Positions 36,333 to 52,574 of a DNA stretch of 64,000 bases are shown here, one piece after another (the stretch's first letter is position 1; every line of letters starts with the position of its first letter). A program made the position numbers and the translations under genes. The stretch spans positions 1 through 64,000 of the forward strand of contig NJBP01000004.1 of the NCBI GenBank assembly GCA_005223085.1, written 5' to 3'. The notes under the pieces were generated by a model that did not search any database, was not told the origin of the DNA, and saw only the letters and a list, made by a program, of their open reading frames with translations. This DNA is from Candidatus Aerophobetes bacterium Ae_b3b (lineage in GTDB: Bacteria; Aerophobota; Aerophobia; Aerophobales; AE-B3A).

Positions 36333-37271
36333 ATGACAGACTTAATAACGAGAATAGCTTGGCTGTACTATAAAGAAGGATTGAAAGAGACTCAAATTGC
36401 TAGTATGCTGGATCTATCACGGAGCAAGGTAGGTCGTTTACTTCAGAAGGCTCGCCAGGACGGAATTGTTCACTTCCAGGTGCTCGGGACTACCAGCAAT
36501 TGCCTAGAGATCGAGAAAAAACTCATTGACTTATTTGATTTGCAGGACGCAGTAGTAGTTCCCACAGTTTCAGAAAATAAGATTAAAGAGAGTTTAGCCA
36601 AGGCAGCCGCTCAATACCTCGAGAGACATCTCCCCAGTGGAAGCCTCTTTGCGGTAGGTTGGGGAATCACCATATCCGAAGTGCCTAAATTTATTCGCTC
36701 GCAAGAAATCCGCGATCTCAGAATAGTCACCCTTAATGGAGGACTTACCCCTTCATTTTATCTAAATCCCTACGACGTTGGGAGCAGGCTGGCCTATATC
36801 CTTGGAGGAGAGTGTTACTATGTTCACGCTCCTGCCATAACCACATCCGAGCATCTGTGTCGCTCCCTTAAAGCCGATGCTACCGTAGAGCAGGCTCTGG
36901 AGATGGCCAAACACGCTGATTACTTTATGGTGGGCATCGGTAGGGCCGGTGCTGAGTCGACCTTGGTTAAGATGAGATATCTTAATCTAGGAGAAACCGA
37001 AGCTCTACGTCAACAAGGTGCCGTGGGGGATATCCTGGGCCAGTTTTTCAATGTCCAGGGTGAAAAAGTTAACTGTGACCTCCACAAAAGAATTGTAGGC
37101 TTTCCCATCGAGGATTTGAGCAAAATGAAAAATGTGATCGGACTGGCCGGGGGAATAGCTAAAGCAGAGGCCATCCTAGGAGCACTCCATGGCATGTACA
37201 TTAAGATCCTCATCACCGACGAGAAGACGGCCGAGTCCCTGATAAATCTTGAGCAAAGATCAGCTTCTTGA
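36333..37271 (+). CDS. SorC/DeoR-type sugar-binding transcriptional regulator
   Basis: A 312-residue regulator of the SorC family. Residues 5-55 form a helix-turn-helix (YYKEGLKETQIASMLDLSRS, then KVGRLLQKAR), and residues from about 60 on form the phosphosugar-binding domain, with LFAVGWGITISEVPK, a GGLTPSFYLNPYDV block and GLAGGIAKAEAILGALHG. SorC proteins sense phosphorylated sugars and control pentose, polyol or erythritol operons. It stands at the head of the transporter and RuBisCO-like cluster on the same strand, so that operon is its likely target. The ribosome site is poor. Confidence 0.85.
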   Translation: MTDLITRIAWLYYKEGLKETQIASMLDLSRSKVGRLLQKARQDGIVHFQVLGTTSNCLEIEKKLIDLFDLQDAVVVPTVSENKIKESLAKAAAQYLERHLPSGSLFAVGWGITISEVPKFIRSQEIRDLRIVTLNGGLTPSFYLNPYDVGSRLAYILGGECYYVHAPAITTSEHLCRSLKADATVEQALEMAKHADYFMVGIGRAGAESTLVKMRYLNLGETEALRQQGAVGDILGQFFNVQGEKVNCDLHKRIVGFPIEDLSKMKNVIGLAGGIAKAEAILGALHGMYIKILITDEKTAESLINLEQRSAS

Positions 37272-37406
37272 AATTAGATCTTTTTTGTTAGTTGAACACT
37301 TATTTCATTGGGTAGTCCAAGAGCATGAGAAGAAAGGAGGTGAAAAAGAGAATAAAGAGGCGTAAAGTGGAAAAATAAGTTCATTGACGAAAGGGAGGTA
37401 AATCAG

Positions 37407-38948
37407 ATGAAAAGAAACAAAGTGATACTTGGTGCGGTGGTGACATTGGCGGCTCTATTGCTAGTGTCTGTGGGAGTGGCTCCAGTATTTTGCTACACCG
37501 CCGCCCAGGAAAAATATTTTCCCCGGGTAGATCGGAAAATGTCCCCGTTCTTAATGGCCCGGTGGGGAATTGTCCCTGGATATCAATTCCCCAACGATTG
37601 GGTCAAGACAGTGGATTGGTCAGAGATTAAGAAAAAATACGGCGGAACTACGGTGACTATGGCCATTCAGGGACACGATGTTTCCGCCCCGGAGATGTTC
37701 AAAAAGGACTTCGAGGCCCTTTCCGGAATTAAGGTCGAGCTATACGGTGTTCCCTCAGAAGAGTTCACTGAGAAACTGCTGGTGGAATTCCTTGCCGGGA
37801 CTGCCAAATACGACACCGTGGAGTACTACCAGGGCGACACCGGAATGTTCATTCCCTATCTAGCTGATCTAGCTCCGTATGTGACCAAATTTAAATATAC
37901 GGACATCAAGGATATTCACCCAGTTTATTTCTGGATTCACTCACTCCGCGACGGCAGAATAGTCGCCCTCCCCTTTGATAGTGACTGTCGATTACTGCAT
38001 TATCGCCCCAAGATGCTGGCACTGGCCGGATATGATCGACCACCCAAAACCTGGACAGAAACCCTCGAGTACTGCAAAAAGCTAGAGCAGGCACTACCCG
38101 AGGGAACATATGCCATTGGATTCCCGGGATCTCGTCATTTTGGGGCTCTCAAGGCCTGGATGGATATTGCCGGTTCTGAAGGGGTAGAGTTCTTTACCGA
38201 AGGCTGGAAGGTAGCTCTTAACACTCCCGACGGAGTGGGAGCTCTCAGGACAATGATGGAGCTTTCCAAGTACGCACCTCCGGGTCTAAAGAACTGGGGC
38301 TACTCTGAGTGTCGGGAAGCCTGGTTGGGCGGAAAAATGGCTATGGTCCAGCAGTGGCAGTGCGTGGGAAGACAAATGTACGATCCCGAACTCTCTGAGT
38401 TCGCTCTGGAAGATCCGCGCCCGGAAAGTGCTCCCTTACCTCAGGGAACCGGGCCCAATGCTCGAGAGGCCTACAGTGTCGTTCAGGGATCCTCTGCAAG
38501 TTTGACTGAAGTTAGCAAAAACAAGGAAGCAGCTGCCATCTGGCTTTTCTTCCTCAATGGAACGGAAACCCAGTTCGTCTATTCTATCTCCGGTACCGGA
38601 GTCGAGACAGGCTCCAGGAAGGTTCTGGAGAATCCCGTCTATCAGAAAGGATTCCCTCCCGCCAAAGCTTGGCTCTATGAGCTGGACTATGCCAATGCTG
38701 AACAGCTATGGATTTCAGAATGGTCAACTCTGGAATCGTTAGGTACGATGATTGTCAACTATGGACTGGTGGGAGAATATACTCCTGAAAAAGCCATGGA
38801 GATTTTAGAGAAGAGGTGGACCCAAGTTATGAAACGGGCTGGATACTATCTGCCGGGAGCACCACCGGTACCCAGCGCCTACTGGCCAGAAATCAGGGAT
38901 GCGTTTATTGAGAAAGTCAACGAGCTCTTCGATAGTCTCGGAGTATAA
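37407..38948 (+). CDS. ABC transporter sugar-binding protein (family 1)
   Basis: A 513-residue secreted solute-binding protein of the carbohydrate class (CUT1 type). A signal peptide covers about residues 1-30 (KRNK, then a Leu/Ala/Val-rich core). No clear lipobox is present. The mature part shows the family pattern: VTMAIQGHDVSAPEMFKKDF, FLAGTAKYDTVEYYQGDTG, LADLAPYV, a PFDSD hinge element and W-rich binding clefts. At over 500 residues it is longer than typical. A GGGAGG site lies ten bases before the ATG. It begins the transport unit of the cluster. A 17-codon basic frame with a strong GGAGG (37325-37378) lies upstream and could be a leader. Confidence 0.88.
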   Translation: MKRNKVILGAVVTLAALLLVSVGVAPVFCYTAAQEKYFPRVDRKMSPFLMARWGIVPGYQFPNDWVKTVDWSEIKKKYGGTTVTMAIQGHDVSAPEMFKKDFEALSGIKVELYGVPSEEFTEKLLVEFLAGTAKYDTVEYYQGDTGMFIPYLADLAPYVTKFKYTDIKDIHPVYFWIHSLRDGRIVALPFDSDCRLLHYRPKMLALAGYDRPPKTWTETLEYCKKLEQALPEGTYAIGFPGSRHFGALKAWMDIAGSEGVEFFTEGWKVALNTPDGVGALRTMMELSKYAPPGLKNWGYSECREAWLGGKMAMVQQWQCVGRQMYDPELSEFALEDPRPESAPLPQGTGPNAREAYSVVQGSSASLTEVSKNKEAAAIWLFFLNGTETQFVYSISGTGVETGSRKVLENPVYQKGFPPAKAWLYELDYANAEQLWISEWSTLESLGTMIVNYGLVGEYTPEKAMEILEKRWTQVMKRAGYYLPGAPPVPSAYWPEIRDAFIEKVNELFDSLGV

Positions 38949-39036: not shown

Positions 39037-39921
39037 GTGAAGAAGCTTAAGTGGAGAAAACTTCTGGTTATCCTGGCCCTGCTGGGCCCAGCCATGGCTA
39101 TGTTCATAGGACTTACCGTCTATCCTTTCATCAAAAACCTCATCTGGAGTACTACCTTTTTTGTCCTCTACAAACCTACAAGCCAATACGTTTCTGCTGG
39201 TCTGGAAAACTACAAGGATATTCTGTTTGGGATTGAATTCTGGAACAGCGTCGAATCCAGTTTAGTAATCGTTTTTGGAGCCCTGGCTATAGAGTGTTTC
39301 ATTGGCCTGGGAGTCGCTCTGGTGCTAAATGAGAGGTTCCGGGGACGGGGCATTCTGAGGACTCTCTTCATTATCCCCATGGGAGTTATGCCCATAGTAG
39401 CCGGAGTGGTCTGGAAACTGATGCTCTTTCCTGGAGGGAGTCTAATTAGCGACATCCTGGTGAAGATGCGATTGGCTTCCGGTCAGCTCGACTTCTGGGG
39501 TGATGTCCGGCTAGCCCGACTGAGTGTCATGGCGGCGGACATCTGGGGCTGGACCCCTTTTGTGGGCCTTATTCTTCTGGCTGGCCTGCAGGCCATCCCC
39601 AGTGAGTTATACGATGCGGCCCAGGTGGACGGTGCCTCACAGCTGCAGAGATTCACCCATGTGACCGCCCCCCTGCTCAAGTACGCCATAATTGTTGCTC
39701 TTATGTTTCGGGGAATGGATCTCCTTCGTCTTTTTGACACGGTGTACATGATGACCCAGGGAGGTCCCGGATATGCTACAGAAGTCATCAGTTTCTTTAT
39801 CTACCGAAAAGGCTTTTCGGAGTTTGGTGTGGGATACGCGGCTGCTACGTCGGTCATAGTATTCGTGGTAATCTTCGTCATAGCTCAAATTACGGTGCGC
39901 AAGTCCGGTATTGCTGCCTGA
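39037..39921 (+). CDS. Sugar ABC transporter permease (MalF type)
   Basis: A 294-residue inner-membrane permease with six membrane segments. It starts with GTG (KKLKWRKLLVILALLGPAM). The EAA loop that contacts the ATPase is ELYDAAQVDGASQLQRFTHV near residues 190-209, of the CUT1 form. It pairs with the permease that follows 11 bases later. No ATPase gene accompanies them. Confidence 0.9.
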   Translation: MKKLKWRKLLVILALLGPAMAMFIGLTVYPFIKNLIWSTTFFVLYKPTSQYVSAGLENYKDILFGIEFWNSVESSLVIVFGALAIECFIGLGVALVLNERFRGRGILRTLFIIPMGVMPIVAGVVWKLMLFPGGSLISDILVKMRLASGQLDFWGDVRLARLSVMAADIWGWTPFVGLILLAGLQAIPSELYDAAQVDGASQLQRFTHVTAPLLKYAIIVALMFRGMDLLRLFDTVYMMTQGGPGYATEVISFFIYRKGFSEFGVGYAAATSVIVFVVIFVIAQITVRKSGIAA

Positions 39922-39932: not shown

Positions 39933-40763
39933 GTGAAGAGAATAAACATACCTAAAACCATCGGCATTTGTCTGGTAGTCCTCTACGTTGTGGCGGCTCT
40001 AATTCCAGTCTACTGGGTGGTTACCACCGCCTTTAAACCCCGGATAGAAGTGTATACCTTTCCGGTGAAGTATATACCTTCCTCTTTCACCTGGGAGCCA
40101 GCTCATAATTCCCTTACCCAGCGGCCAACCATGAGTTTCCTCCGAAACAGTCTCTTTGCTGCAGTCGGCGCTACTATTCTCGCTCTGGCGCTGGGAGTGC
40201 CAGCTGCCTATGCCCTAGCCCGAGAGAAATTCCCGGGAAGGAAGGATATAGCCTTTTTTATCTTGACCACCAGAATGTTCCCTCCGGTAACTATTTGCAT
40301 CCCCATCTACTTTATTATTAGGAATGTAGGGTTGTTGGATAGGCTCGCCGGTTTGATAATCGTATACGCCATGTTTAACCTGGCTATCATCATTTGGGTA
40401 ATGAAGGGATACATTCAACAGGTGCCGGTGGAAATTGAGGAAAGTGCCAGGGTAGATGGTTGCACCAAACTGGGGGCTTTTATCAGAATCACCCTGCCTC
40501 TGCTTGCCCCCGGAATGGCTGCGGTAGCAATTATTTCTCTGGTATTGTCGTGGAACGAATTCCTCTACGCTCTCATACTTACTCATTCGCCGGCTGCCAA
40601 AACCTTGCCGGTGGGAATTGCTGAATTCATTGGCGGTGCCTACGGCATTCTCTGGGGTGAAATCTGCTTCCTTGGTACTGTAGCCATTATCCCTATGATC
40701 GTGCTCATTATGGTGGTTCAGAAATACATCGTCCGCGGTTTGACTATGGGCGCCATAAGATAA
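39933..40763 (+). CDS. Sugar ABC transporter permease (MalG type)
   Basis: A 276-residue second permease with six membrane segments and the EAA loop EIEESARVDGCTKLGAFIRI near residues 169-188. The C-terminal QKYIVRGLTMGAIR is the MalG-type ending that reaches into the ATPase. It starts with GTG. The gene is followed by 680 bases without a recognisable gene, which is where the ATPase might have been. Confidence 0.9.
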   Translation: MKRINIPKTIGICLVVLYVVAALIPVYWVVTTAFKPRIEVYTFPVKYIPSSFTWEPAHNSLTQRPTMSFLRNSLFAAVGATILALALGVPAAYALAREKFPGRKDIAFFILTTRMFPPVTICIPIYFIIRNVGLLDRLAGLIIVYAMFNLAIIIWVMKGYIQQVPVEIEESARVDGCTKLGAFIRITLPLLAPGMAAVAIISLVLSWNEFLYALILTHSPAAKTLPVGIAEFIGGAYGILWGEICFLGTVAIIPMIVLIMVVQKYIVRGLTMGAIR

Positions 40764-41443
40764 ACAGCGTGGTTTCGCCCATAGATTCTAAGACCCCAGT
40801 CGAGAGTACCGTGCTCCAGTCATCCCTCGCGGGCTCCCCCATCTTGCGCTAATTATGTTCCCGTATAGGAAACTCAATAATTTGAAAGAAATAGGTGTAA
40901 TAAAAGGCGACTTGAGAACCAAGTTGATAGGTGAAAATGAGCTAGAATTTCCAAGGAAAACAGGAATTTTTATAAAGCGAGGTTAAAGAAAAAAGAAAAA
41001 TTCAAAAATTTCTCAAGATAACGGCTGGATCTTTGATAATTAAGGAAAAAAGCTGTACCCGGCCTTCAAGGAGTTGAGTTTCTTTTCCTAAAGGCGAGTG
41101 GATGTGTAAAGGTAATCTGGAATACTTGTGTTTATAAAAGGATAAAAGCCTTTCTCTCGGTTTAGGGAATGGCCTCTGGAATCTTGAATTAGTTAAAAAA
41201 TTGATCTTTTGCATTTTCCGGAAGACCTCTCTTATGGAAAAGTCTGCAGGTCTTTTGGAGCCATTGTACACACCATAGGGGGAGAAGAGATGTTAGATAT
41301 GGGTTTAGTGGACTGACACACTTAGGAGTTGAAATGAATTTGGGTGAGTTGAAAACCTGCCTATAACCGGCAAAATCAGTTCTTGAATTGGCTAATCATT
41401 AATGCATAGATTCTGAACAGAAGAGACGAAAGGAGGCATTTGC
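40764..41443. other. 680-base gap between transporter and RuBisCO-like gene
   Basis: No protein or RNA gene can be supported here. A minus-strand frame at 41002-41271 and a 43-codon plus-strand frame (MFPYRKLNNLKEIGVIKGD at its start) lack family resemblance and good ribosome sites. The base composition is richer in A and T than the genes on either side. It could be a decayed gene, possibly the missing transporter ATPase, but nothing shows this. A weak promoter-like pair (TTGAAT, 18 bases, TAGATT) lies just before the RuBisCO-like gene, whose AAAGGAGG site begins the next unit. Confidence 0.5.
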
Positions 41444-42727
41444 GTGGCTAGATTTGATCCGATTGTTTTCTCTTCCTGGGAGGGACTCCATCAGGAAAAC
41501 TATTTGATAGCCATGTATTTTATGGAGGTGGAGGCTAGCGTAGATCCAGTAGAGTTGGGTGTAGAGATCGCAGTGGACCAGACTACTGGCACCTGGACTG
41601 CCGTACCAGCCGAAACACCGGAAGTCCGTCGTCACCATATGGCCAAGTTGATAGCTCTTCACGAAGTTCCAAATTATGAGTTTGAGGTTCCTCAGGATAC
41701 CAAGACAAGGCGCTATCTAATTCAGATAGCATTCCCTACCATAAACTTTGGACCCCAGATTCCCATGCTGTTGAGCAGTGTGTTTGGCAACTTATCGTCT
41801 CGTGGCTGGATAAAATTACTGGACCTTCAGTTTCCCAGAACCTTTCTGGAAAGTTTTCCTGGTCCAAAATTTGGAATTGAAGGATTGCGCAGGCTTCTAG
41901 GGATATGGGATAGACCAATCTTATGTAATGTTATTAAACCCTGTACTGGTATCAGTCCTGAAGTAGGAGCTGAACTTGTCTACCAGGCAGCCAGGGGAGG
42001 GGTAGATATCATTAAGGACGATGAGTTGATCGGTGATGCTCCCTTTTCTCCAATGGTAAAGCGAGTGAAGGAATACATGTGCCGACTCAAGGAAGCCGAC
42101 GAACAGAAAGGCGAAAAGACGCTATTTGCAATAAATGTTACTGACCGGCAGGATAAGATTCGGGATAACGCTCTGAGAGCGATTGAGGCAGGGGCTAACG
42201 CACTGATGATAAGCTTTGCAACGGTCGGTTTCTCCATGGTACGAACTCTGGCAGAGGATAAGTCCATAAATGTTCCCATAATGGGGCATATGAATTTTGC
42301 CGGCGCGCTTTGCGAATCACCATGTTCAGGTGTGAGCTCCGAACTAATCTGTGGAAAGTTGGCCCGAATGGTGGGTATGGATATGGTTCTTGTTTATCCT
42401 CCTCAGAGCCGATTTCATCTCATAGAAAATAAGTTTGAGCGTGTTGTGCAGATATTGCAGCAACCTTTTTCCAAAATAAAACCAAGCTTTCCTTTATTAG
42501 CTGGCGGTGTTCATCCGGGAATAGTTCCTGCTACTCTAGACTCAATGGGGACTGATGTCATTATTGGCGCCGGAGGTTCTGTTCACGGTCATCCTGGTGG
42601 TGCTGTAGCCGGAGCTCGGGCTTTCCGGCAGGCCTTTGAAGCCTATTCTCGTGGCGTTGACTTGGAAGGATGGGCTCAGGATAAAGAGGAGCTGCAGCAA
42701 GCCTTGGGACTTTGGGGAACAGCATGA
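41444..42727 (+). CDS. RuBisCO-like protein (form IV type)
   Basis: A 427-residue RuBisCO homologue that cannot be a normal carboxylase. The metal site is intact: K191, D193 and E194 in GGVDIIKDDE match the carbamylated Lys, Asp and Glu. T50-W51 of TGTW, K165 of VIKP and the GG pair 377-378 that bind the first phosphate are kept. Changed positions are the second Lys of IKPK (C167), the Arg after the active-site His (GHMNF, M283), Ser of SGG (A353) and the loop-6 Lys (no GK motif in VYPPQSRFHLIE). Known relatives enolise, decarboxylate or hydrolyse other compounds (methionine salvage, tetritol-phosphate isomerase, apionate pathways). It starts with GTG and overlaps the E1 alpha gene by four bases. 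Confidence 0.9.
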   Translation: MARFDPIVFSSWEGLHQENYLIAMYFMEVEASVDPVELGVEIAVDQTTGTWTAVPAETPEVRRHHMAKLIALHEVPNYEFEVPQDTKTRRYLIQIAFPTINFGPQIPMLLSSVFGNLSSRGWIKLLDLQFPRTFLESFPGPKFGIEGLRRLLGIWDRPILCNVIKPCTGISPEVGAELVYQAARGGVDIIKDDELIGDAPFSPMVKRVKEYMCRLKEADEQKGEKTLFAINVTDRQDKIRDNALRAIEAGANALMISFATVGFSMVRTLAEDKSINVPIMGHMNFAGALCESPCSGVSSELICGKLARMVGMDMVLVYPPQSRFHLIENKFERVVQILQQPFSKIKPSFPLLAGGVHPGIVPATLDSMGTDVIIGAGGSVHGHPGGAVAGARAFRQAFEAYSRGVDLEGWAQDKEELQQALGLWGTA

Positions 42728-43719
42728 GCTTGGTAGACGAAGAAGAAAAACAGCGGTCTGTTCTGGCTCCTGAGTTCTATAGAAAAATGTTAGCCGTTAG
42801 GCTATTCGAGCAGCGTGCTATTGAGCTTTACACTCGAGGAGAGATTCGGGGAGTTATTCACCCCTATATCGGTGAGGAAGCTGTAGCTGTAGGAGCGTGC
42901 GCTGTTCTCAACAATGATGACTACGTGGTTTCTACTCATCGCGGCCATGGCCATTGCATTGCCAAAGGAGCTTCATTGGATCGGATGATGGCCGAACTTC
43001 TGGGACGTAGCAATGGCTACTGTCGAGGAAAGGGTGGTTCCATGCATCTGGCCACCTTTGAAGTGGGAATGTTGGGTGCCATAGGTATCGTGGCAGCAGG
43101 TATTCCCATTGCTGTGGGAGCTGGACTATCAGTGAAATTGAGAAAGACTCGTCAGGTAGTAATTTGCTTTTTCGGTGATGGTGCTGTCAACCAGGGAGCA
43201 TTCCATGAGGGTTTAAATATGGCTGCTGTGTGGAACTTACCGGTTGTCTTTCTGTGTGAAAATAATTTCTATGCTATCTCTACTCACGTGAGCAGAGTTT
43301 CGGCAGTAACCGAGGTGGCTCGGAGGAGTTGTGCCTATGACATTCCAGGTAAGCGAGTCGATGGCAATTCCGTATGGGCTGTCTACGAGGCGGTTCAGGA
43401 GGCAGTAGCCCGGGCTAGACATGGACATGGTCCAAGTCTCATCGAGGCTCTGACCTACCGCCATGAAGGACATTACAAGGGAGACCCCGGTCATTATCGA
43501 CCACCAGAGGAGTTAAAAAAATGGCAACGGAAGGATCCCATTAAAAAGTTAAGGAAAGAGTTACTAGCTAAAAATTGGCTGGAGCCAAAAGCACTGGAGG
43601 AACTGGAACAGGAGGTTGCCCAAGATGTACAAAGGGCCGTTGAGTTTGCCAGGAAGAGTCCCTATCCTGCAGAGGAGGAACTCACAAGCGATATATTCGG
43701 AGGAGACCATAGGAAATGA
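42724..43719 (+). CDS. TPP-dependent dehydrogenase E1 component, alpha subunit
   Basis: A 331-residue protein of the pyruvate/acetoin dehydrogenase E1-alpha family, which binds thiamine diphosphate. The TPP motif runs from GDGAVNQGAFHEGLNMA near residue 149 to CENN about 30 residues later. HRGHGHCIAKGAS and GKGGSMH are also typical. I start at ATG 42724, which overlaps the stop of the RuBisCO-like gene. With the beta subunit it would decarboxylate a 2-oxoacid or cleave an acyloin. No lipoyl E2 or E3 gene lies in the window. Confidence 0.9.
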   Translation: MSLVDEEEKQRSVLAPEFYRKMLAVRLFEQRAIELYTRGEIRGVIHPYIGEEAVAVGACAVLNNDDYVVSTHRGHGHCIAKGASLDRMMAELLGRSNGYCRGKGGSMHLATFEVGMLGAIGIVAAGIPIAVGAGLSVKLRKTRQVVICFFGDGAVNQGAFHEGLNMAAVWNLPVVFLCENNFYAISTHVSRVSAVTEVARRSCAYDIPGKRVDGNSVWAVYEAVQEAVARARHGHGPSLIEALTYRHEGHYKGDPGHYRPPEELKKWQRKDPIKKLRKELLAKNWLEPKALEELEQEVAQDVQRAVEFARKSPYPAEEELTSDIFGGDHRK

Positions 43720-44693
43720 GGGAAATTAGCTACCGAGACGCCATAAATGAGGCTTTACAAGAGGAGATGAAGCGCGATGAAAGAGTGATACTACTTGGCG
43801 AAGACATCTCGCACTATGGTGGACCTCGGCGAGTAACCTGGGGTCTTGTTGAGAGTTTTGGTGAAGACCGGGTCAGGGATACACCTATTTCAGAGAATAC
43901 TATTATAGGCACGGGTCTGGGAGCCGCTATTACCGGTATGCGGCCGCTTGTGGAGATTTCGTATATAGATTTTGCTTTACTGGCTATGGATCAAATTGGT
44001 AACCAAGTAGCCAAATTATCCTATATGACCGGTGGTCAAACCAAGGTACCTTTGGTTATTCGGACCCAGGGTGGGGCTGGTGGTGGCACCGCTGCTCAGC
44101 ACTCGCAGAGCTTGGAGATGCTATTTGTACATATTCCTGGGCTGAAAGTGGTAATTCCGGCTACTCCTTATGATGCTAAGGGATTAATTAAGATGGCTAT
44201 CCGGGATGATAGCCCGGTGGTCTTCATTGAACACAAGTTGCTCTATAGTACCAAGGGAATGGTTCCGGAAGAAGAGTATCTTATTCCTTTCGGTAAGGCG
44301 GCAATTCGCCGCAGTGGTTCGGATATTACCATGGTAACTTATTCGGCCATGTTGTCAGAAGTGATGGCGGCTGCTGACGTACTCCATCAGAAGGAGATAG
44401 AAGCAGAAGTGCTTGATCTGAGGACCCTTATCCCATTAGATATTGATGGTGTTCTGGCCTCGGTGAAAAAGACAGGGAGGTTACTGATAATCCATGAGGC
44501 CTCTTTGGTTGGAGGAATGGGGGCTGAAATTGCTGCCCAAGTTCAGGAACAGGCATTTGACTATCTGGATGCCCCTGTTATCCGTCTGGGAGCAGTTCCG
44601 ATACCTATTCCTTATTCAGAGTCCCTGGAGCGGCTGGTTTTTCCCAATAAAGGGAAAATAGTTACTGCTAGCCGTGCCCTAATTGTTGCTTAA
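43716..44693 (+). CDS. TPP-dependent dehydrogenase E1 component, beta subunit
   Basis: The 325-residue partner of the alpha subunit. REISYRDAINEALQEEMKRD, LLGEDISHYGG, the DTPISENTIIGTGLGAA block with the cofactor glutamate, GGAGGGTAAQHSQSLEMLF and the C-terminal transketolase domain (EAEVLDLRTLIPLD) are all standard for the PDH/acetoin E1-beta family. The start overlaps the alpha stop (ATGA). After it comes a 700-base gap with a structured element and a possible transposase remnant before the operon resumes. Confidence 0.9.
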   Translation: MREISYRDAINEALQEEMKRDERVILLGEDISHYGGPRRVTWGLVESFGEDRVRDTPISENTIIGTGLGAAITGMRPLVEISYIDFALLAMDQIGNQVAKLSYMTGGQTKVPLVIRTQGGAGGGTAAQHSQSLEMLFVHIPGLKVVIPATPYDAKGLIKMAIRDDSPVVFIEHKLLYSTKGMVPEEEYLIPFGKAAIRRSGSDITMVTYSAMLSEVMAAADVLHQKEIEAEVLDLRTLIPLDIDGVLASVKKTGRLLIIHEASLVGGMGAEIAAQVQEQAFDYLDAPVIRLGAVPIPIPYSESLERLVFPNKGKIVTASRALIVA

Positions 44694-44720
44694 CCTGTGT
44701 CGGTTTGACACCCTAAAAAT

Positions 44721-44763
44721 ACTTCCCGTAAGCCACGTCGCTTGACGGCGTGGTAAGGGAGGT
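44721..44763. other. Imperfect nested hairpin, possible mobile-element end
   Basis: An outer arm ACTTCCC/GGGAGGT surrounds an inner stem CCACGTCG-cttga-CGGCGTGG (44733-44753), each with one G-T type mismatch. It could terminate the E1 transcript or mark the end of an insertion element, because a transposase-like frame follows at 44793. Confidence 0.5.
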
Positions 44764-44792
44764 GTCCAGCGAAGCTGCGCTAAGTTGCTCTT

Positions 44793-45146
44793 TCAATTAG
44801 AATTCGGCAATTTGCACCAAAGACAGGAATTTGACGAGTGTCCAAAGAGGTTATGAAGAACAAAGTTGTAAACGTTCCTAAACGCCCTCGTAGTCTCCAG
44901 AGACGAGACCCTCGCTCTAGGGAGAAGCTTCCTGAGGTTGATCACTGCTGCTGTGAGGAGAAGTTGGGTCTCCATCATAGCGAGTGACCTGGCAACCAAT
45001 TGCCCGAGCACTATCAATGTACCTTTTTCGATCTGGGTAAGTGTTGGATTCTTCCTTTTTCGCACAGTAGATAATTTAGTTAGTGCGATGGCTCTTAAAT
45101 CGTCTTGGTAGCTTTCTACCCCGAGGACAGATGAAAAGATCTTGCT
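44793..45146 (-). pseudogene. Possible transposase C-terminal remnant
   Basis: A minus-strand frame of about 117 codons without a convincing start. The stretch ARSLAMMETQLLLTAAVINL followed by RKLL resembles the C-terminal helix of IS1182/IS5-type transposases (pattern LARMRLQxLLTAAxxNLKRL). The rest is not recognisable. It interrupts the otherwise dense catabolic operon. The assignment is weak. Confidence 0.3.
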
Positions 45147-45239
45147 CTATCATAATAACAGTATATTCAGGAGCGTTGGGAAGGCAGCAAATGAATGCAG
45201 TATATATCAGAAACTACTAAGGGAGAGGAAGGGGGATTT

Positions 45240-45262
45240 CAAGGGGAAAGAATTTCCCCTTG
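45240..45262. other. 10-bp perfect hairpin with 3-base loop
   Basis: CAAGGGGAAA (45240-45249), GAA, then TTTCCCCTTG (45253-45262). It has no T run after it. It lies in the gap before the hydroxyacid dehydrogenase gene and may be a transcription boundary or part of a decayed element. Confidence 0.5.
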
Positions 45263-45397
45263 ATTATCTTGTACGGAGGTAAACGTCCGCTTCTAGCATT
45301 TATTCTTCTTCAGCACCGTCAAAGTGATGGGTTTTGACCTGTGAGGGGATAATAGTATGCCGATTCGCTGAGAAAACAGTGAAAGGGGTTTTTGAGG

Positions 45398-46492
45398 ATG
45401 AGACTCTTGTTGACCAGTAAACTAGAAGATGAAGACCTGAAGATATTGAGTCGCTACTTTGATGAAATAAGAATTCGTGGTCTCTACGTGCGTTCCAAGA
45501 TTCTCCGGCCAGAGGAACTGGCTGCGGAGTTAGGAAATGTTGATATTCTGGTAGTAGAGTTTGATCAGGTAACACCAGAGGTATTGGATACCGCACCCAA
45601 CCTGAAGTTAATAGTTTCGCTGCGGGCTGGTGCAGGCCGTAACATTAACCTGAGGGCTGCCACAGAAAGAGGCATACTGGTGGCCTGCTGTCCCGGTCGT
45701 AGCGCTGATCAGGTGGCTGATTTCACCCTGGGTGTGATAGTAGCCCTTGTCCGACACATTGCTGAGACTCACTGTCTAATCAAGTCTCGACAGCTTACCG
45801 AGAAAAATCCCAAGCGAGAGGGCTTTGCCAAAGGTGATGTTGTCTGGATTATGAATGATCCCCAGAACTTTAGCTTCTTGCGTTTCAAAGGACCCATATT
45901 AGCTGGTCGGACTCTGGGTATTTTGGGATTTGGTGTCATCGGCCGGGAGGTAGCCCGCCGAGCCGGAGGCTTTAAGGTAACTATGATTGCCCATGATCCC
46001 TACGTTTCACCTGAGGAAATAGCAGAATTTAGAGTAAAGCTGGTTGATTGCGACACTCTGTTCAGAGAGTCAGACTTTCTTACGGTGCATGTTAAGGATA
46101 GTCCTGAAACCCGTGGCTTGGCTGGAAGATATCAGTTCTCCCTGATGAAATCTACCGCTTACTTTATCAATACGGCTCGGGGTTCCGTCGTTGACTACAA
46201 TGCCTTATACGAGGTGCTGGTTAACAAGAAAATTGCCGGTGCAGCTCTGGATGTATTCGAGGAAGAACCGCTGCCCCCTGATCACCCACTGCTGGATCTG
46301 GACAATGTCCTACTGACTCCTCACATTGCCGGGGCCAGTCCCGATTGCTATAGGGTATCCTCTCCCCTGGCGAGAAAGGCAATTGAGGACTTTCTGGCTG
46401 GTCGCAAACCGCGATTTCTGGCCAACGAGCAGGTCTGGGAACGCCGAAGGTTCAGAATCGACAAAGACAAATCAGATTACCGGGAAAATTAA
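45398..46492 (+). CDS. D-2-hydroxyacid dehydrogenase (phosphoglycerate-dehydrogenase type)
   Basis: NAD-dependent dehydrogenase of the D-isomer family. The nucleotide loop is GILGFGVIGREVA. The catalytic triad is Arg in INTARGSVVDYN, Glu in FEEEPLP and His in LTPHIAGAS. A segment of about 25 residues between the two domains (KNPKREGFAKGDVVW) is longer than usual. I start at ATG 45398 rather than the TTG two codons earlier. It would interconvert a 2-oxoacid and a 2-hydroxyacid of the sugar-acid route. Its stop overlaps the kinase start (TAATG). Confidence 0.88.
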   Translation: MRLLLTSKLEDEDLKILSRYFDEIRIRGLYVRSKILRPEELAAELGNVDILVVEFDQVTPEVLDTAPNLKLIVSLRAGAGRNINLRAATERGILVACCPGRSADQVADFTLGVIVALVRHIAETHCLIKSRQLTEKNPKREGFAKGDVVWIMNDPQNFSFLRFKGPILAGRTLGILGFGVIGREVARRAGGFKVTMIAHDPYVSPEEIAEFRVKLVDCDTLFRESDFLTVHVKDSPETRGLAGRYQFSLMKSTAYFINTARGSVVDYNALYEVLVNKKIAGAALDVFEEEPLPPDHPLLDLDNVLLTPHIAGASPDCYRVSSPLARKAIEDFLAGRKPRFLANEQVWERRRFRIDKDKSDYREN

Positions 46493-48006
46493 TGAGCTCT
46501 CGGGAATTGGTAATTGGAATAGATATTGGAACTTCTCAAGCCAAAGGAGGGGTATTTGATCCCCAAGGCAGATGTCTGGGGAAGGCCTCCTTCTCGTATG
46601 CCATACATTCCCCACATCCTTCTTGGGATGAGGTTGACGCTGAGGACTGGTGGCAGGCGGTCTGTCACATAATCCACCAATCTCTTGCCACAGCCAGAGT
46701 GTCCAGCAGGGATATTGCTGCCATATCAGTCAGTAGCCTGCTACCCTGCTGCCTTCCGGTCGATCACCAGGGAAACCCCCTCCGTAGGGCCATTATCTGG
46801 CGCGATCGGCGCACCGATCAAGAGTGCGCTTGGATGGAGCAGCACATCGGAGGCGATGCCTGCTTCGAAATCTCCGGCAACCGTATTGACCATTATTTCT
46901 GGGGTCCTAAGGTGCTCTGGATAAAGCATCAGGAGCCAAAAATCTTTAAGAGAACCTGGAAGCTGCTACAGGCTCACAGCTACATGGTGCTGAAGCTTTG
47001 TGGTGAAACGGTGACTGATTTCACCTGTGGCAATCTCTCTATACCCTTCTATGATTACCGCAGGAAATGCTGGTCACCTGCAATGAGTGAGAAGATGGGG
47101 GTTCCCATTGAGATGCTGCCTGATTTAAGACCTTCACACATGGTGGTCGGTCGGGTGAGCACCAACGTAACCGGAGAAACTGGTCTTGATAGGGGTACCC
47201 TGGTAGTCACAGGGTGTGGAGACTTTGCTTCCTCAACCCTGGGAGCGGGCGTTTATCGTCAGGGAGAGGCTTGCATGATGTTGGGAACCGCCGGAAACTT
47301 ACTCATCCCTATGGATAACCCCAACTTCGATCCCCGTCTCATTAATTCTTCTCATGCCTTGCCCAACCGGTACATAAGTTTTGCCACTTCTTATGCTGGT
47401 GGCTCACTTCAGTGGTTACGGCAGGTTCTGGCTGGATCAAGAAACGAATTTGACATCTCTTACCAACAGTTGGATTTGGAGGCCTCCCGCATCCCGCTAG
47501 GATCAGAGGGACTGCTGTTTCTCCCATTTCTTCCGGGAGAACTTACTATTAACTGGGACCGGACATCACGAGGTGTCTTCTTTGGCCTAACTCTGAATCA
47601 CACCAGAGGACACCTCTACCGAGCTGTACTGGAATCGATTGGATATCGATACCGTCACATGCTAGAAATCATGGCCAGTCGCGGAATCAGGGTGAAAAAA
47701 GCAACCCTTATCAATGGCGGTGGAAAAAGTCCAGTTTGGCGACAAATTCTGGCCGACATTACCGGTATGCACCTTAATTACACGGAGTCAGAGGGAGCTC
47801 CCCTGGGAAACGCAGTATTGGCTGCCATGGGAGCCAAGCTCATCAAGAGTGGCGAGGAAGTAAAGAACTGGTTATCGATAAAGAGTGAAACTGAACCCGA
47901 CCAGAGAGCTTATCGGTTATACAACGATTACTTTCAACTGTACAAAAGACTTTATGAGCACCTGAAGGATGATTTTCAGGAACGCTATCGCTTTGTTGGC
48001 AGCTAA
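46492..48006 (+). CDS. FGGY-family carbohydrate kinase, first of tandem pair
   Basis: A 504-residue sugar kinase of the FGGY family (xylulo-, glycero-, fuculokinase). The phosphate-1 motif is VIGIDIGTSQAKGGVFD. RAIIWRDRRTDQE and the catalytic Asp in GCGDFASSTLGAG near residue 240 follow, and the ATP-site motif is INGGGKSPVWRQILADI. It phosphorylates a ketose or polyol in the cytoplasm after uptake. Specificity cannot be read off, but SCLLPCCLPVD differs from the SGQMHG of true xylulokinases. A second FGGY gene starts 21 bases later. Confidence 0.88.
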   Translation: MSSRELVIGIDIGTSQAKGGVFDPQGRCLGKASFSYAIHSPHPSWDEVDAEDWWQAVCHIIHQSLATARVSSRDIAAISVSSLLPCCLPVDHQGNPLRRAIIWRDRRTDQECAWMEQHIGGDACFEISGNRIDHYFWGPKVLWIKHQEPKIFKRTWKLLQAHSYMVLKLCGETVTDFTCGNLSIPFYDYRRKCWSPAMSEKMGVPIEMLPDLRPSHMVVGRVSTNVTGETGLDRGTLVVTGCGDFASSTLGAGVYRQGEACMMLGTAGNLLIPMDNPNFDPRLINSSHALPNRYISFATSYAGGSLQWLRQVLAGSRNEFDISYQQLDLEASRIPLGSEGLLFLPFLPGELTINWDRTSRGVFFGLTLNHTRGHLYRAVLESIGYRYRHMLEIMASRGIRVKKATLINGGGKSPVWRQILADITGMHLNYTESEGAPLGNAVLAAMGAKLIKSGEEVKNWLSIKSETEPDQRAYRLYNDYFQLYKRLYEHLKDDFQERYRFVGS

Positions 48007-48027: not shown

Positions 48028-49560
48028 ATGGTTGTAATAGGATTGGATCTGGGAACTACTGTCTGTAAAGCTGGGCTCTTCGATACCACAGGAAAACTTT
48101 TAAAACTGGTTAGAAGGGAATATCCGGTTACCAGTGATTATCCGGGGTGGGCTGAGCAGAATCCTGATATTGTTTGGAACACCATTCGAATGGTTTTGTC
48201 AGAGATCGCTGAAGATAAACAGTTAAACGATCCTATCAAGGCGATTTGCATCTCAGCTCAGGGTGAGGCAGTAGTCTTTCTCGATCAACGGGGCAGGCCC
48301 TTGCGTAATTCCATCCTCGGGATGGATATGAGATCGGTGGAGCAGGCAGAGCGTTTAAAAAGCAAGCTGGGAGCCGAATGGTTTTTAGAGACCCCCGGAG
48401 TTCCTCCTCATCCCCTCACTACAGTAGCCAAGATCCTCTGGGTTAAGGAACATGAGCCGGAGATTGCCCAAAAAACTGTTCGCTACCTTTGCTATGAGGA
48501 TTTTGCCTTCTTCAAACTAGGCGACGTTCCCGCCATCGACTACTCCCTTGCTTGCCGGACTGGGCTTTTTGATATGAGAAAGAAAAAATGGTCAGCGAAG
48601 ATATTGGATTATACCGGGATAAACGAAGATCAACTGGCCAACATCTACCCCTCGGGAGAGGCGATCGGCAAAATTAACCGAAAAATAGCTCATACTTTGG
48701 GCTTACCGACCGATATTCTACTGGTCACTGGCGGACACGATGTGACCTGTGCGGCTTTGGGAGCAGGTGCCATCAACAAGGGAGTGGGGGGAGATATTCT
48801 GGGGACGGCGGAAATTTTTGGCGTTACTGTGGAGAACAACTCAGTGGCGAAAGAAATAAAACCGAGTAACTTTGCCTGCTACTGTCACGTAGTTCCGAAC
48901 AAGTTCTGGCTGATGACTTTGAATCACACCGGTGGGCTTCTCCTCAGGTGGTATCGAGATAACTTTGGTGAGTCAGAGGTAAAGCTGTCTGAGAAAGAAG
49001 GAAAAGATGTCTTTGACTTAATAGTAAGTAAAAGTAAGCCCGACATTGCAGAAAGCATGATCCTTCCCCATTTTGTAGGCAGCGGCACTCCCTGGATAGA
49101 TGCTCGTTCCAAAGGAGCAATAGTGGGTTTGAGCATTCACACCAACAAAGCCGATATTATTCGAGCCATCCTGGAAGCCGTCATTTATGAGCAAAAGATA
49201 AGTATAGACATTTTTGAAAAATACGGAGTCGATATTAAAGAGATCAGAGCAGTGGGGGGAGGTAGTAAATCTCGGTTCTGGCTACAGATAAGGTCAGATA
49301 TCCTGGGAAAAGCTGTTCTTACTTTGGAAACTGAGGAGGCTTCCTGCCTCGGAACCGCCATTCTTGCCAACTATGCTCTGGGGAATTATCCCTCTATTGA
49401 GAACGGCGTCGAACAAATGGTGAAGATGAAGGACAGAATCGAACCGAACAAAAAACTTTACTCCCGGTACCAGCAAAGATATCTTATTTACCAAGAGCTT
49501 TACCCAGCCCTCAAGAAGATCAATTATTCGCTTCAGCAAATAAGCTCCAGGGGAGGTTGA
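48028..49560 (+). CDS. FGGY-family carbohydrate kinase, second of tandem pair
   Basis: A 510-residue FGGY kinase that is clearly a different paralogue from its neighbour. VIGLDLGTTVCKAGLFD is phosphate-1, ISAQGEAVVFLD holds the substrate loop, TGGHDVTCAALGAGA the catalytic Asp near residue 236, and AVGGGSKSRFWLQIRSDI the adenosine motif. Two kinases in one operon suggest two phosphorylatable substrates or branches. It ends four bases before the SAF-domain oxidoreductase gene. Confidence 0.88.
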   Translation: MVVIGLDLGTTVCKAGLFDTTGKLLKLVRREYPVTSDYPGWAEQNPDIVWNTIRMVLSEIAEDKQLNDPIKAICISAQGEAVVFLDQRGRPLRNSILGMDMRSVEQAERLKSKLGAEWFLETPGVPPHPLTTVAKILWVKEHEPEIAQKTVRYLCYEDFAFFKLGDVPAIDYSLACRTGLFDMRKKKWSAKILDYTGINEDQLANIYPSGEAIGKINRKIAHTLGLPTDILLVTGGHDVTCAALGAGAINKGVGGDILGTAEIFGVTVENNSVAKEIKPSNFACYCHVVPNKFWLMTLNHTGGLLLRWYRDNFGESEVKLSEKEGKDVFDLIVSKSKPDIAESMILPHFVGSGTPWIDARSKGAIVGLSIHTNKADIIRAILEAVIYEQKISIDIFEKYGVDIKEIRAVGGGSKSRFWLQIRSDILGKAVLTLETEEASCLGTAILANYALGNYPSIENGVEQMVKMKDRIEPNKKLYSRYQQRYLIYQELYPALKKINYSLQQISSRGG

Positions 49561-49564: not shown

Positions 49565-50872
49565 TTGGAACTGCTTTATCAAAAACTAAAATCTCTTCAA
49601 GAAAAAAAACAGCCTATAAAGGTGGGCCTGGTTGGATGCGGCCAGATGGGATCAGGAATGGTAAGTCTGGTAAGCCAGATGCCCGGATTAGAAGTTGCAG
49701 CCGTGGCCGAATTAGACCTGGAAAAAGCCAAAGGTGCTTATGAGACTGCTGGAATTCCCGAGGGAAAAATTGCCGTTGTTGAGGACCCGGAAAAAGCGGA
49801 GGATCTCCTAGGTAGAGGCAAAGTCATCATCTGCAAAAATGCTTTGACTCTGGTTTCTATCCCTTCTCTTCAAGCAGTGGTGGAAGCTACTGGTATCCCT
49901 CGAGTCGGTGCCCAGATTGCTTTAGAATGCATCTTTCACCAAAAGCATGTAATTATGCTGAATGTGGAAACCGAGGTGACGGTGGGTTGGATACTGAAAA
50001 AAATGGCTGATAAAACCAATGTTATCTACACCGTCTCGGCGGGAGACGAGCCGGGAGCCATAAAAGAGCTCTACAACTTCGCCTCTTCTTTAGGATTTTC
50101 GGTGGTGACCGCCGGGAAGGGTAAAAATAATCCCCTAGATTTGGATGCAACTCCTGATGAGTGCCAGGAAGAAGCCCTGAGAAAAGATATGAACCCCAAA
50201 ATGCTAACTTCCTTTATAGACGGGACAAAAACAATGATTGAAATGGCTGCAGTGGCCAACGCCACTGGTCTCGTTCCCGACGTCCCGGGAATGCATGGTC
50301 CCAAAGTTGATGTCTCTGAACTCACTCAGGTATTAATACCCAAGAAAGACGGAGGTATATTGAGTAGAAGTGGGGTGGTTGACTACTCTATCGGCAAAGT
50401 GGCTCCGGGTGTTTTCCTGATAGTAACCACGGGTAAAGAAAGGGTAAGAAAAGATTTAGGATTCTACGGCATGGGAGAAGGTCCCTATTACCTTCTTTAC
50501 CGTCCTTATCATCTATGCAGTATAGAGACTCCTCTTTCCGTAGCTAGAGCGGTTCTTTTTAATGAACCCACCTTAAATTCAGAACAAAGAGTAGCTGAAG
50601 TGGTAACGGTAGCCAAGCAGAATCTAGATGTCGGAGTCACCATTGATGGAATAGGGGGCTACCATGTGCTTGGACGAATCTATCCAGCGCAAGAAGCAAG
50701 AAAAAAAAATCTTTTACCTTTAGGACTAGCTGAAGGAGGCAGAGTCAAGATAAGAGTCGCCAAAGGGGAATACATCACTATGGATATGGTTGAGCCAGAA
50801 ACGGAATCGACCGTTTACCAGCTTTGGAAATTACAGGAAAGCCTCTGGCAATCCGAGCTTAAGAGTAAATAA
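49565..50872 (+). CDS. NAD(P)-dependent oxidoreductase with SAF domain
   Basis: A 435-residue protein of the homoserine-dehydrogenase-like family with a C-terminal SAF domain. The Rossmann loop is KVGLVGCGQMGSGMVSLV near residue 25. The middle catalytic part contains YTVSAGDEPGAIKELYNFA and VVTAGKGKNNPLD. The SAF-like end (LPLGLAEGGRVKIRVAKGEY) is shared with antifreeze-like and sugar-acid dehydratase proteins. Such genes accompany catabolism of tetritols and branched or uncommon sugars, but I know of no settled reaction. It starts with TTG after GGGGAGG. Confidence 0.8.
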   Translation: MELLYQKLKSLQEKKQPIKVGLVGCGQMGSGMVSLVSQMPGLEVAAVAELDLEKAKGAYETAGIPEGKIAVVEDPEKAEDLLGRGKVIICKNALTLVSIPSLQAVVEATGIPRVGAQIALECIFHQKHVIMLNVETEVTVGWILKKMADKTNVIYTVSAGDEPGAIKELYNFASSLGFSVVTAGKGKNNPLDLDATPDECQEEALRKDMNPKMLTSFIDGTKTMIEMAAVANATGLVPDVPGMHGPKVDVSELTQVLIPKKDGGILSRSGVVDYSIGKVAPGVFLIVTTGKERVRKDLGFYGMGEGPYYLLYRPYHLCSIETPLSVARAVLFNEPTLNSEQRVAEVVTVAKQNLDVGVTIDGIGGYHVLGRIYPAQEARKKNLLPLGLAEGGRVKIRVAKGEYITMDMVEPETESTVYQLWKLQESLWQSELKSK

Positions 50873-50900: not shown

Positions 50901-51533
50901 TTGAATTTAGAAAAAGTAGAGGTGGTCCCAAGCAGGATGCTGCGGGTGAGGATACCGCAAGAACAGGGAGTAAGATCGGTCTTTTGCCGGACAGAATCAG
51001 GGACTGCCGGGACAGGTAAGCCAATGCCGAAAAAGCTAGAATCTGAAGAAGGCGAGAAATACCACTTTGCTGTGGGAAGCGATCATGCCGGGTTCTCTCT
51101 AAAGGAGAGGATCAAAGAGTACCTCTGTGGAGAAGGAAGAGCTGTCCTGGATGTAGGTATCCATACTTTGAGGAGTGTCGGCACCGGGCCCGTAGCCGAG
51201 AAAGTGGGACGTCTGGTGGCCAAGGGGAAATGCGAAAAGGGTATTTTGGTTTGTGGAACCGGTATTGGTATGGCAATGGGAGCAAATAAAGTCTTCGGTA
51301 TCAGAGCAGCCCTCTGTTACAACCAGTTTACTGCCTCTTATGCCAAGCGCCACAATGATGCCAACGTAATTTGCCTGGGAGCCCGGGTTCTGGGGGAAGA
51401 ACTGGCCATTGAGTGTGTCAGGACCTGGTTAAGGGAAGAATTTCTGAGGGATAAATACGCCCAGCGCCTTGCCTATCTAGATGTTATTGAAAATCATTCC
51501 TGCCGGAATAAACTAGCAAAAAAGGGAGAGTGA
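50901..51533 (+). CDS. RpiB/LacAB-type sugar-phosphate isomerase with N-terminal extension
   Basis: From residue 53 on this is an RpiB-family isomerase: AVGSDHAGFSLKERIKEYL, the catalytic Cys in LVCGTGIGMAMGANKV, and KRHNDANVICLGARVLGEE. It would interconvert an aldose and a ketose phosphate. The usual DYPDYA stretch that shapes the phosphate site is replaced by RSVGTGPVAEKVG, so the substrate is probably not plain ribose 5-phosphate. About 50 extra N-terminal residues of no known family precede the domain. The TTG start has GGAAGG just before it; an internal ATG at 51024 lacks a ribosome site. RpiB paralogues also occur in erythritol operons. Confidence 0.8.
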   Translation: MNLEKVEVVPSRMLRVRIPQEQGVRSVFCRTESGTAGTGKPMPKKLESEEGEKYHFAVGSDHAGFSLKERIKEYLCGEGRAVLDVGIHTLRSVGTGPVAEKVGRLVAKGKCEKGILVCGTGIGMAMGANKVFGIRAALCYNQFTASYAKRHNDANVICLGARVLGEELAIECVRTWLREEFLRDKYAQRLAYLDVIENHSCRNKLAKKGE

Positions 51534-51536
51534 ACT

Positions 51537-52574
51537 TTGAAAGCGTTAGTATATCATGCCATCCAAGACTTTCGCATTGAAGAGATTGAAAAACCCGCCT
51601 GTCCACCAGAAGGCTTACTTCTAAAAGTTAAAGCTTGTGGTTTGTGTGGAGGAGATGTTCGCACATACTTTGGGGGTCACAAAAGTGTCACTCCTCCCTG
51701 GATTATCGGCCATGAGATTGCGGGAATAGTAGAAGAAGTGGGCGATCAAACTAAAGGTTTCCATAAGGGAAATCGTCTGGCGGTAGCTCCTGTCGTTTAC
51801 TGCGGTAAGTGCCCCTTTTGCCTCGAGGGGAAACATTATCTTTGCCAGAATGTCAAGGAAATTGCTCAGCATTGGCCAGGAGGATTTGCTGAATTTATGG
51901 CTATTCCGGAAGATGCTTTGAAATTGGGAAATGTTAATGTCATTCCTCAAGGTCTTTCCTTTGAAGAAGCTGCCATTTCCGAGCCTCCATCTTCGTGCCT
52001 TAATGCGCAGGATCGTGCTCAAGTTGGAATGGGAGATAGCGTGGTTATCATCGGAGCAGGGCCGGTCGGCTGTTTTCACTGTGAAATTGCCCGTATTCGT
52101 GGCGCTCTAAAGATTGTTATGGTAGATTTGTTGAATGAACGGCTAAAACTGGCCGAGCGATTTAGCCCCGATCTTCTTCTTGAGAGTAGTGACTCTGGAT
52201 ATCTTAAGAAGTTGAATGATGAAACAGAAGGTTTGGGGGCAGATGTCGTTATTGTGGCCTGCTCTTCCACCAAAGCCCAGCAGGATGCGCTAGAAATTGC
52301 CAGAAACGGAGGCAGAGTCATCTTTTTTGGAGGGCTTGCTCCGGGGAAAAGTTCCTCCAGCCTTGATGCTAACCTGCTCCATTACAAGAATCTGCAGATT
52401 TTTGGTGCCTACAGTTTTTCTCCTGAGCATCATCGGCTTTCTTTGAAGCTAATATCTAAAGGAAAAATAGATGCCAAAAAGTATATCACTCATGTTATTC
52501 CCCTGGAGAACATCATTGAAGGCATTAAGGCGGTGAAGGAAGGGATAGTTTTAAAAGTAGTGGTCAGGATTTAG
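51537..52574 (+). CDS. Zinc-dependent alcohol/polyol dehydrogenase (MDR family)
   Basis: A 345-residue medium-chain dehydrogenase. Catalytic zinc ligands are the Cys in ACGLCGGDVR and the His-Glu of IIGHEIAGIV. The structural zinc site is CGKCPFCLEGKHYLC with four Cys. The NAD loop is VIIGAGPVGCFHCEIA. It oxidises a secondary alcohol of a polyol or sugar, in sorbitol- or threonine-dehydrogenase manner. It starts with TTG three bases after the isomerase and closes the operon. Its end overlaps the convergent MFS gene by four bases. Confidence 0.9.
   Translation: MKALVYHAIQDFRIEEIEKPACPPEGLLLKVKACGLCGGDVRTYFGGHKSVTPPWIIGHEIAGIVEEVGDQTKGFHKGNRLAVAPVVYCGKCPFCLEGKHYLCQNVKEIAQHWPGGFAEFMAIPEDALKLGNVNVIPQGLSFEEAAISEPPSSCLNAQDRAQVGMGDSVVIIGAGPVGCFHCEIARIRGALKIVMVDLLNERLKLAERFSPDLLLESSDSGYLKKLNDETEGLGADVVIVACSSTKAQQDALEIARNGGRVIFFGGLAPGKSSSSLDANLLHYKNLQIFGAYSFSPEHHRLSLKLISKGKIDAKKYITHVIPLENIIEGIKAVKEGIVLKVVVRI

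Follow-up and report, generated by a model that had tools for sequence, protein, structure and literature searches.

As enzymes that couple an oxidation-reduction to a skeletal rearrangement, DXR-type proteins interconvert 2-C-branched tetritol 4-phosphates and linear 2-pentulose 5-phosphates. The type II branch of the family (DXR-II, or DRL) is an alternative 1-deoxy-D-xylulose 5-phosphate (DXP) reductoisomerase in the 2-C-methyl-D-erythritol 4-phosphate (MEP) pathway (PMC3847144). Here we describe a predicted DRL encoded among 13 genes of a 64,000-nucleotide (nt) stretch of DNA from Candidatus Aerophobetes bacterium Ae_b3b (contig NJBP01000004.1, positions 1 to 64,000; hereafter the window, its genome being labelled G000). 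This protein resembles the Brucella enzyme (3upl, 3upy; PMC3847144) over a 420-residue alignment and at all compared positions save one, and differs from it in belonging to a separate clade whose genes lie beside kinases, RpiB and a D-2-hydroxyacid dehydrogenase (DHADH) across two phyla. The gene cluster is real and is not assigned to any pathway; our reading, tentative and possible rather than probable, is that it may be a gene set in two blocks for an undescribed route of sugar or polyol catabolism, in which a DRL paralogue would convert a branched sugar-alcohol phosphate to a linear pentulose phosphate.

Other enzymes of the locus also have described relatives. The best-scoring solved relative of its RuBisCO-like protein (RLP) is MtnW (2oek), the 2,3-diketo-5-methylthiopentyl-1-phosphate enolase of methionine salvage. 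The window RLP carries Asn at Lys98 (2oek numbering), which we take to be the catalytic base of MtnW, falls below the cut-offs of two curated MtnW models (TIGR03332, 322.8 against 513.6 bits; a second model, 360.4 against 409 bits), and has no other salvage genes in its cluster; an MtnW role was rejected on the Lys98 replacement and on these scores. Among 89 aligned sequences, Lys occupies that position only in the 2oek row. To our knowledge, the D-apionate routes described so far include no DRL, E1 or RpiB. The RLPs of that pathway, OiaX and OiaT (Carter et al. 2018, as cited in PMC6302742), likewise act within a sugar catabolic gene set; with the OiaX model (NF042437, cut-off 700 bits) the window RLP scores 219.7 bits, on which we rejected it as a 3-oxo-isoapionate-4-phosphate decarboxylase, and the only sugar kinases in the set are of the FGGY family, with no DUF1537 kinase. 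An initial annotation of the window had rightly remarked on the missing DUF1537 kinase and on the mismatch to methionine salvage and the apionate routes. The non-oxidative D-apiose pathway (AplK with AptA/AptB; PMC13001218) similarly joins a carbohydrate kinase to a two-gene thiamine pyrophosphate (TPP) enzyme in branched-pentose catabolism, whereas the TPP pair of the window is of the E1_dh type, not a transketolase, and is accompanied by a DRL and an RLP. The methylthioadenosine-isoprenoid shunt of Rhodospirillum rubrum (PMC10663253) ties an RLP to DXP chemistry and pairs it with a cupin methylsulfurylase, but the 13 genes of the window include no cupin and no methylthioadenosine genes; a double cupin adjoins the E1 by another RLP of the same genome (contig C23).

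Gene content of the locus

Open reading frame (ORF) and domain searches of the window delimited 13 intact ORFs between positions 36333 and 52574, all on the + strand, with two gaps:

36333..37271, +, SorC-family regulator with sugar-phosphate-binding domain (PF04198, 241.5 bits)
37407..38948, +, ATP-binding cassette (ABC) transporter solute-binding protein, family 1 (PF01547, 80.5 bits)
39037..39921, +, ABC transporter permease (PF00528)
39933..40763, +, ABC transporter permease (PF00528)
40764..41443, no strand, gap 1 of 680 nt with a split 65+56-nt repeat inside (86% identical stretch at G000:C23)
41444..42727, +, RLP, form IV (PF00016, 175.8 bits)
42724..43719, +, TPP-dependent E1 alpha (PF00676, 304.4 bits; TIGR03182, 386 bits, slightly below the cut-off of 393.85)
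43716..44693, +, TPP-dependent E1 beta (NF006667, 399.6 bits, above the cut-off of 321)
44694..45391, no strand, gap 2 of 698 nt with no assignable gene (ORF, Pfam and plasmid searches)
45392..46492, +, DHADH, phosphoglycerate-dehydrogenase-like (PF02826/PF00389)
46492..48006, +, FGGY kinase 1, FGGY1 (PF00370/PF02782; TIGR01312, 351.6 bits, below cut-off)
48028..49560, +, FGGY kinase 2, FGGY2 (PF00370/PF02782)
49565..50872, +, DRL (DXR type II) paralogue, predicted NAD(P)-dependent oxidoisomerase, which we propose as the centre of its module (PF21135; 3upl/3upy)
50901..51533, +, RpiB-type sugar-phosphate isomerase (PF02502)
51537..52574, +, zinc-dependent alcohol dehydrogenase, ADH (PF08240/PF00107)

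The domain searches bear out nearly all family calls of the initial annotation (SorC, solute-binding protein, permeases, RuBisCO_large, E1 pair, 2-Hacid_dh, two FGGY kinases, RpiB and ADH), and its description of an uncharacterised sugar catabolic gene set is upheld. The many 4-base overlaps that it reported come down to two of 4 nt (RLP/E1 alpha and E1 alpha/E1 beta) and one of 1 nt (DHADH/FGGY1), and the set is not a single tight operon, being broken by two gaps of about 690 nt that flank the RLP and E1 genes. We refer to the SorC gene, the ABC importer and the RLP-E1 alpha-E1 beta cassette as block A, and to DHADH-FGGY1-FGGY2-DRL-RpiB-ADH (45392-52574) as block B. Matches of the solute-binding protein to solved sugar-binding proteins are weak and give no ligand prediction.

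A DXR type II paralogue in a recurrent module

The gene at 49565-50872 had been annotated as a SAF-domain oxidoreductase, but its DXR type II identity was missed, and with that identity the chemistry to be expected of the gene set changes. Its product matches PF21135 (DRL_cat) with 235.9 bits (E=3.2e-70) and aligns to residues 8-427 of Brucella DRL 3upl (E=3.6e-110); 3upl and 3upy are the only solved relatives found by sequence. At 27 positions named as DXR-II-specific or functional in PMC3847144, it equals Brucella DRL at 26, the sole difference being Trp for Arg at 429; Thr229, Gly121, His250, Arg320, Tyr322 and the substrate-anchoring Lys191 and Lys193 are all kept. Because of this agreement, the protein is predicted to be of the DXR-II type and not DLO1 or DLO2.

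Maximum-likelihood analysis places the window DRL with that of G005:C27 (contig C27 of genome G005, from the window's phylum) and five DRLs of a second phylum in a module-B clade (support 97/98). In a separate housekeeping clade (100/99), each of the ten genomes of the window's phylum that carry DRL is represented by one copy, G000 itself by that on contig C35. As the two fall in separate clades, the window gene is a paralogue of the housekeeping one.

Related genomes and members of the second phylum carry all or some of block B, in no case with E1 and seldom with an RLP, so the clustering from DHADH to ADH is not due to chance. Within the window's phylum, G005:C27 has the order FGGY2-DRL-ADH-RpiB (identities to the window proteins 59%, 60%, 57% and 65%), G013:C46 the order FGGY-FGGY2-DHADH-ADH-DRL (FGGY2 56%, DHADH 54%, ADH 60%, DRL 54%), G012:C50 the order DHADH-FGGY1-DRL (84%, 85% and 55%), and G015:C7 an ADH (66%) and a DRL (54%). 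In the second phylum, G294 carries a fucose-isomerase-like protein, FGGY1, DHADH, FGGY2, DRL and RpiB; G396 has the same set minus RpiB; G397 and G394:C52 hold parts of the block; and G402 has SorC-ADH-Rpe-FGGY2-DRL (ADH 56%). FGGY2 lies directly upstream of DRL in G005:C27 (59%) and in G294, G397, G394:C52 and G396 (47-49%); RpiB adjoins DRL in G005:C27 (65%, with ADH between), G397 (52%), G294 (48%) and G394:C52 (47%); and ADH relatives of 57-66% stand beside DRL in G005:C27, G013:C46 and G015:C7. Only 6 of 50 second-phylum genomes have a DRL over the search threshold, which makes the gene accessory there. The stable element is a paralogue of DXR-II, housed in a kinase-isomerase module common to two phyla.

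Gene context and tree do not agree throughout: the DRLs of G012:C50, G013:C46 and G015:C7 keep block B partners yet fall in the housekeeping clade, and a DRL of G061, although its neighbours are ADH, FGGY2 and a fucose-isomerase-like protein, does not belong to the module-B clade. DRLs of a third kind directly follow a split transketolase in G000:C19 (L180, 193-3357) and G013:C243 (L185), and in G392 and G394:C34 (L243, L244) a PfkB kinase is followed by a split transketolase and then DRL. The housekeeping DRLs of G002:C20 and G005:C37 directly precede E1 alpha/E1 beta genes. DRL genes therefore recurrently adjoin TPP or pentose-phosphate enzymes, which handle ketose phosphates.

The RLP and its E1 partners

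The window RLP keeps the equivalents of Lys175, the carbamate Lys201, Asp203, Glu204, His294 and Asn123. Cys, Met, Arg and Ala replace Lys177, Arg295, Lys334 and Ser379, respectively, an incomplete catalytic set on which we rejected a function as RuBisCO carboxylase. All three RLPs of the window's genome adjoin an E1 alpha/E1 beta pair, the genome having three stand-alone E1 alpha genes; the RLPs are mutually only 29-34% identical and the E1 alphas 49-51%, so that the pairings are three separate ones. A fourth adjacency involves one RLP of a genus-mate (L034). The link is not obligatory, since an RLP of the C23 type in G005 (C84) and a fragment in G002 have no adjoining E1 on the available sequence. 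The E1 alpha tree is poorly resolved and gives no support for a single group of the RLP-linked E1s. The genome's single E2 gene lies on contig C37, beside no E1, so the window pair lacks the adjoining partner E2 looked for as a mark of an acetoin or pyruvate dehydrogenase.

The other two RLP loci of this genome differ in content. The first (L037, G000:C10, 343-14799) holds an RLP with an E1 pair, an ABC transporter, an FGGY-like kinase, two xylose-isomerase-like TIM barrels, a histone-deacetylase-like protein, URO-D and an MTTB-family methyltransferase, and possibly serves the use of a methylated substrate. The second (L044, G000:C23, 6224-14273) holds the third RLP, an E1 pair, the double-cupin protein, two ADHs and an FGGY kinase. 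Elsewhere in the genome, genes for an FGGY kinase and an ADH lie upstream of one for a 787-residue E1 alpha-beta fusion (L136, G000:C22, 4467-6830).

Isoprenoid genes in the window's phylum

Among 17 genomes of the window's phylum (69-91% complete; DXS scored at its curated cut-off), DRL is present in 10 and classical DXR in 6, with zero overlap and one genome having neither. DXS passes the cut-off in five genomes, all of which carry DXR, whereas no DXS of the 10 DRL genomes does so; if losses are taken as independent, chance loss of DXS from all ten has a probability of about 1 in 10^8. IspG is found in 16 of the 17 genomes and in 9 of the 10 with DRL. In G011:C73 (L182, 222-4018) IspD, DRL and two adjoining IspG-like ORFs lie together, the DRL belonging to the housekeeping clade, and this cluster is context evidence for a MEP-pathway DRL in the phylum.

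A 2023 survey listed 181 species lacking Dxs only, mostly with no known substitute (PMC10663253), and the pattern seen here (DRL present, DXS and DXR absent, IspG kept) bears on the question of what replaces Dxs. Given the lack of DXS in the DRL genomes and the precedent of mutant Escherichia coli pyruvate dehydrogenase E1 (aceE), which can supply DXP in place of DXS (PMC3424233), the E1 alpha/E1 beta pairs and split transketolases beside DRL are candidate substitutes, a lead rather than a finding; an E1 lies directly beside a housekeeping DRL in only two genomes (G002:C20 and G005:C37). RLP was rejected as a general DXS substitute because five DRL genomes have none.

A proposed pathway and its alternatives

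Since a kinase precedes DRL in block B and RpiB, Rpe or transketolase surround it, we read the block, the conserved core of the set, as catabolic. An FGGY kinase would phosphorylate the substrate; the DRL paralogue, working in the oxidising direction, would rearrange the resulting 2-C-branched tetritol phosphate to give a linear 2-pentulose phosphate; and RpiB, or at sister loci Rpe or a split transketolase, would feed this product into the pentose phosphate pathway, with ADH, DHADH and FGGY1 preparing or finishing the substrate. A methyl branch would yield DXP and a hydroxymethyl branch D-xylulose 5-phosphate, the presence of RpiB and Rpe suiting the latter better. Block A would provide regulation by SorC, ABC uptake and the RLP-E1 cassette. 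More speculatively, E1 alpha/E1 beta might act on the ketose phosphate, cleaving or transferring a two-carbon unit, and the RLP might isomerise or enolise a related phosphate, thereby bringing it in. If this reading is right, a conserved operon gives the DXR type II family a catabolic role, none having been found described, and provides a route for branched tetritols by skeletal rearrangement. Among the papers listed in a literature search that covered few subscription titles, none was relevant to a catabolic DXR-II or to use of 2-C-methylerythritol.

Several points weigh against it. What the sequences show directly is which genes are present, that block B recurs, that its DRL belongs to a clade apart and that RLP adjoins E1; the direction and substrate of the DRL, and every role given to block A, are argued from chemistry, as is the catabolic, reverse-direction use of a DXR-II. 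The only reaction of DXR-II assigned by experiment that we know of is the reduction of DXP to MEP, and the window protein, keeping true DXR-II residues, may simply make MEP. In other genomes E1 alpha/E1 beta and RLP lie outside block B, and the two blocks may be separate pathways: near block B elsewhere an RLP occurs only in G012:C50, where it is very different (31% identity) and on the opposite strand. SorC relatives in or beside other DRL gene sets (G002:C20, 62%; G402, 42%; G362, 39%) suggest that the entire region forms a single regulon. The two gaps and the lack of RLP elsewhere suggest instead a later insertion of the RLP-E1 cassette; we prefer neither.

Could the locus instead supply isoprenoid precursors, with E1 alpha/E1 beta, RLP or both making DXP where no DXS is recognisable, and DRL making MEP from it? 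The lack of DXS and DXR in the phylum's DRL genomes, nine of ten of which keep IspG, the IspD-DRL-IspG cluster, the two E1 pairs adjoining housekeeping DRLs, the aceE mutants, and an RLP of R. rubrum that feeds DXP synthesis (as cited in PMC10663253) are all consistent with it. We nevertheless consider it rather doubtful for this locus, as G000 has a separate housekeeping-clade DRL, the window gene sits with a SorC regulator, an ABC importer and two sugar kinases, and half of the DRL genomes manage without RLP. Unlikely, too, is the sugar-acid pathway of the initial annotation, built around the RLP and running through oxidation, phosphorylation, RLP-catalysed decarboxylation or enolisation and TPP-dependent cleavage. 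The RLP does keep its enolisation residues, and RLPs of three divergent subfamilies adjoin E1 alpha/E1 beta pairs, three times in this genome and once in the genus-mate. The evidence does not support such a centre, however: block B exists without RLP (G012 apart), the OiaX score is far below its cut-off, and at 75 named loci outside the phylum that encode closer RLP relatives (42-55% identity), some on short contigs, none has E1, DRL or DHADH within the 8 kb examined. The initial annotation had proposed to ask whether the partners of the RLP recur with its relatives; these closer homologues occur without E1, DRL and DHADH, which for the RLP counts against its scheme, the exception being the window's own genome, where all three divergent RLPs adjoin E1 pairs.

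It is improbable, in our judgement, that two unrelated catabolic sets are mere neighbours and that mobile elements inserted the RLP-E1 cassette or cut it off from its surroundings. Such an event would fit the gaps that border the cassette, of 680 and 698 nt, and also the 65+56-nt repeat, which occurs in the window (40930-41360) and at the C23 RLP locus (L044, 11189-11311) with 86% identity, each copy upstream of a different RLP gene. By eye the repeat resembles the ends of mobile elements, perhaps of the IS21 kind, and the window copy, whose two pieces lie about 312 nt apart, is probably mobile-element debris; because of this split, and because the two RLPs are 32% identical, we set aside a reading of the repeat as a shared regulatory leader. 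Against this scenario, all genes share one strand, and searches identified no mobile-element debris in gap 2, where a reverse ORF (44793-45065, 90 residues) had no Pfam and no plasmid match and a transposase remnant found no support. G+C content at third codon positions is 0.43-0.44 in RLP and E1 and 0.48-0.58 in the SorC and ABC genes, but cannot separate the blocks since DRL (0.42) and ADH (0.40) are equally low. An Rfam search of the window, gaps included, returned no riboswitch or other known RNA family. Least probable of all is salvage of 5-deoxyribose or methylthioribose, in which the RLP would turn a 5-deoxypentulose 1-phosphate into a 1-deoxypentulose 5-phosphate, to be cleaved by E1 and usable by DRL: the R. 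rubrum RLP performs analogous chemistry (PMC10663253) and a double-cupin protein accompanies E1 and the C23 RLP, yet the 13 genes include no nucleosidase or phosphorylase, MtnK, MtnA or cupin, and the importer and SorC suggest an external substrate.

A broader form of the proposed catabolic reading seems quite unlikely as a whole: that a DXR-type oxidoisomerase was recruited in at least two phyla for branched sugar alcohols, and that, in the same lineage, E1s encoded next to DRL or RLP form or cleave deoxy-ketose phosphates that resemble DXP. Were it true, E1s making such phosphates would also explain isoprenoid synthesis without DXS.

Neighbourhoods of RLP genes elsewhere

The 75 loci with closer RLP relatives hold other genes related to those of the window: FGGY kinases at 27 (best match FGGY1) and 14 (best match FGGY2), SorC at 12, ADH at 6 and RpiB at 3. 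Another recurrent partnership is seen in Bacillota and Syntrophomonas (L047, L052, L055, L059, L062), where close RLPs are followed by a PEP_hydrolase-like protein (PF09370) and UPF0261. RLPs of Thorarchaeota (L076, L078, L087, L094, L096) lie near a formate-tetrahydrofolate ligase gene, and at L054, L108, L118 and L124, as in Chloroflexota (for example L061, L064 and L074), an RLP lies by an FGGY kinase and a class-III aminotransferase-like or saccharopine-dehydrogenase-like protein.

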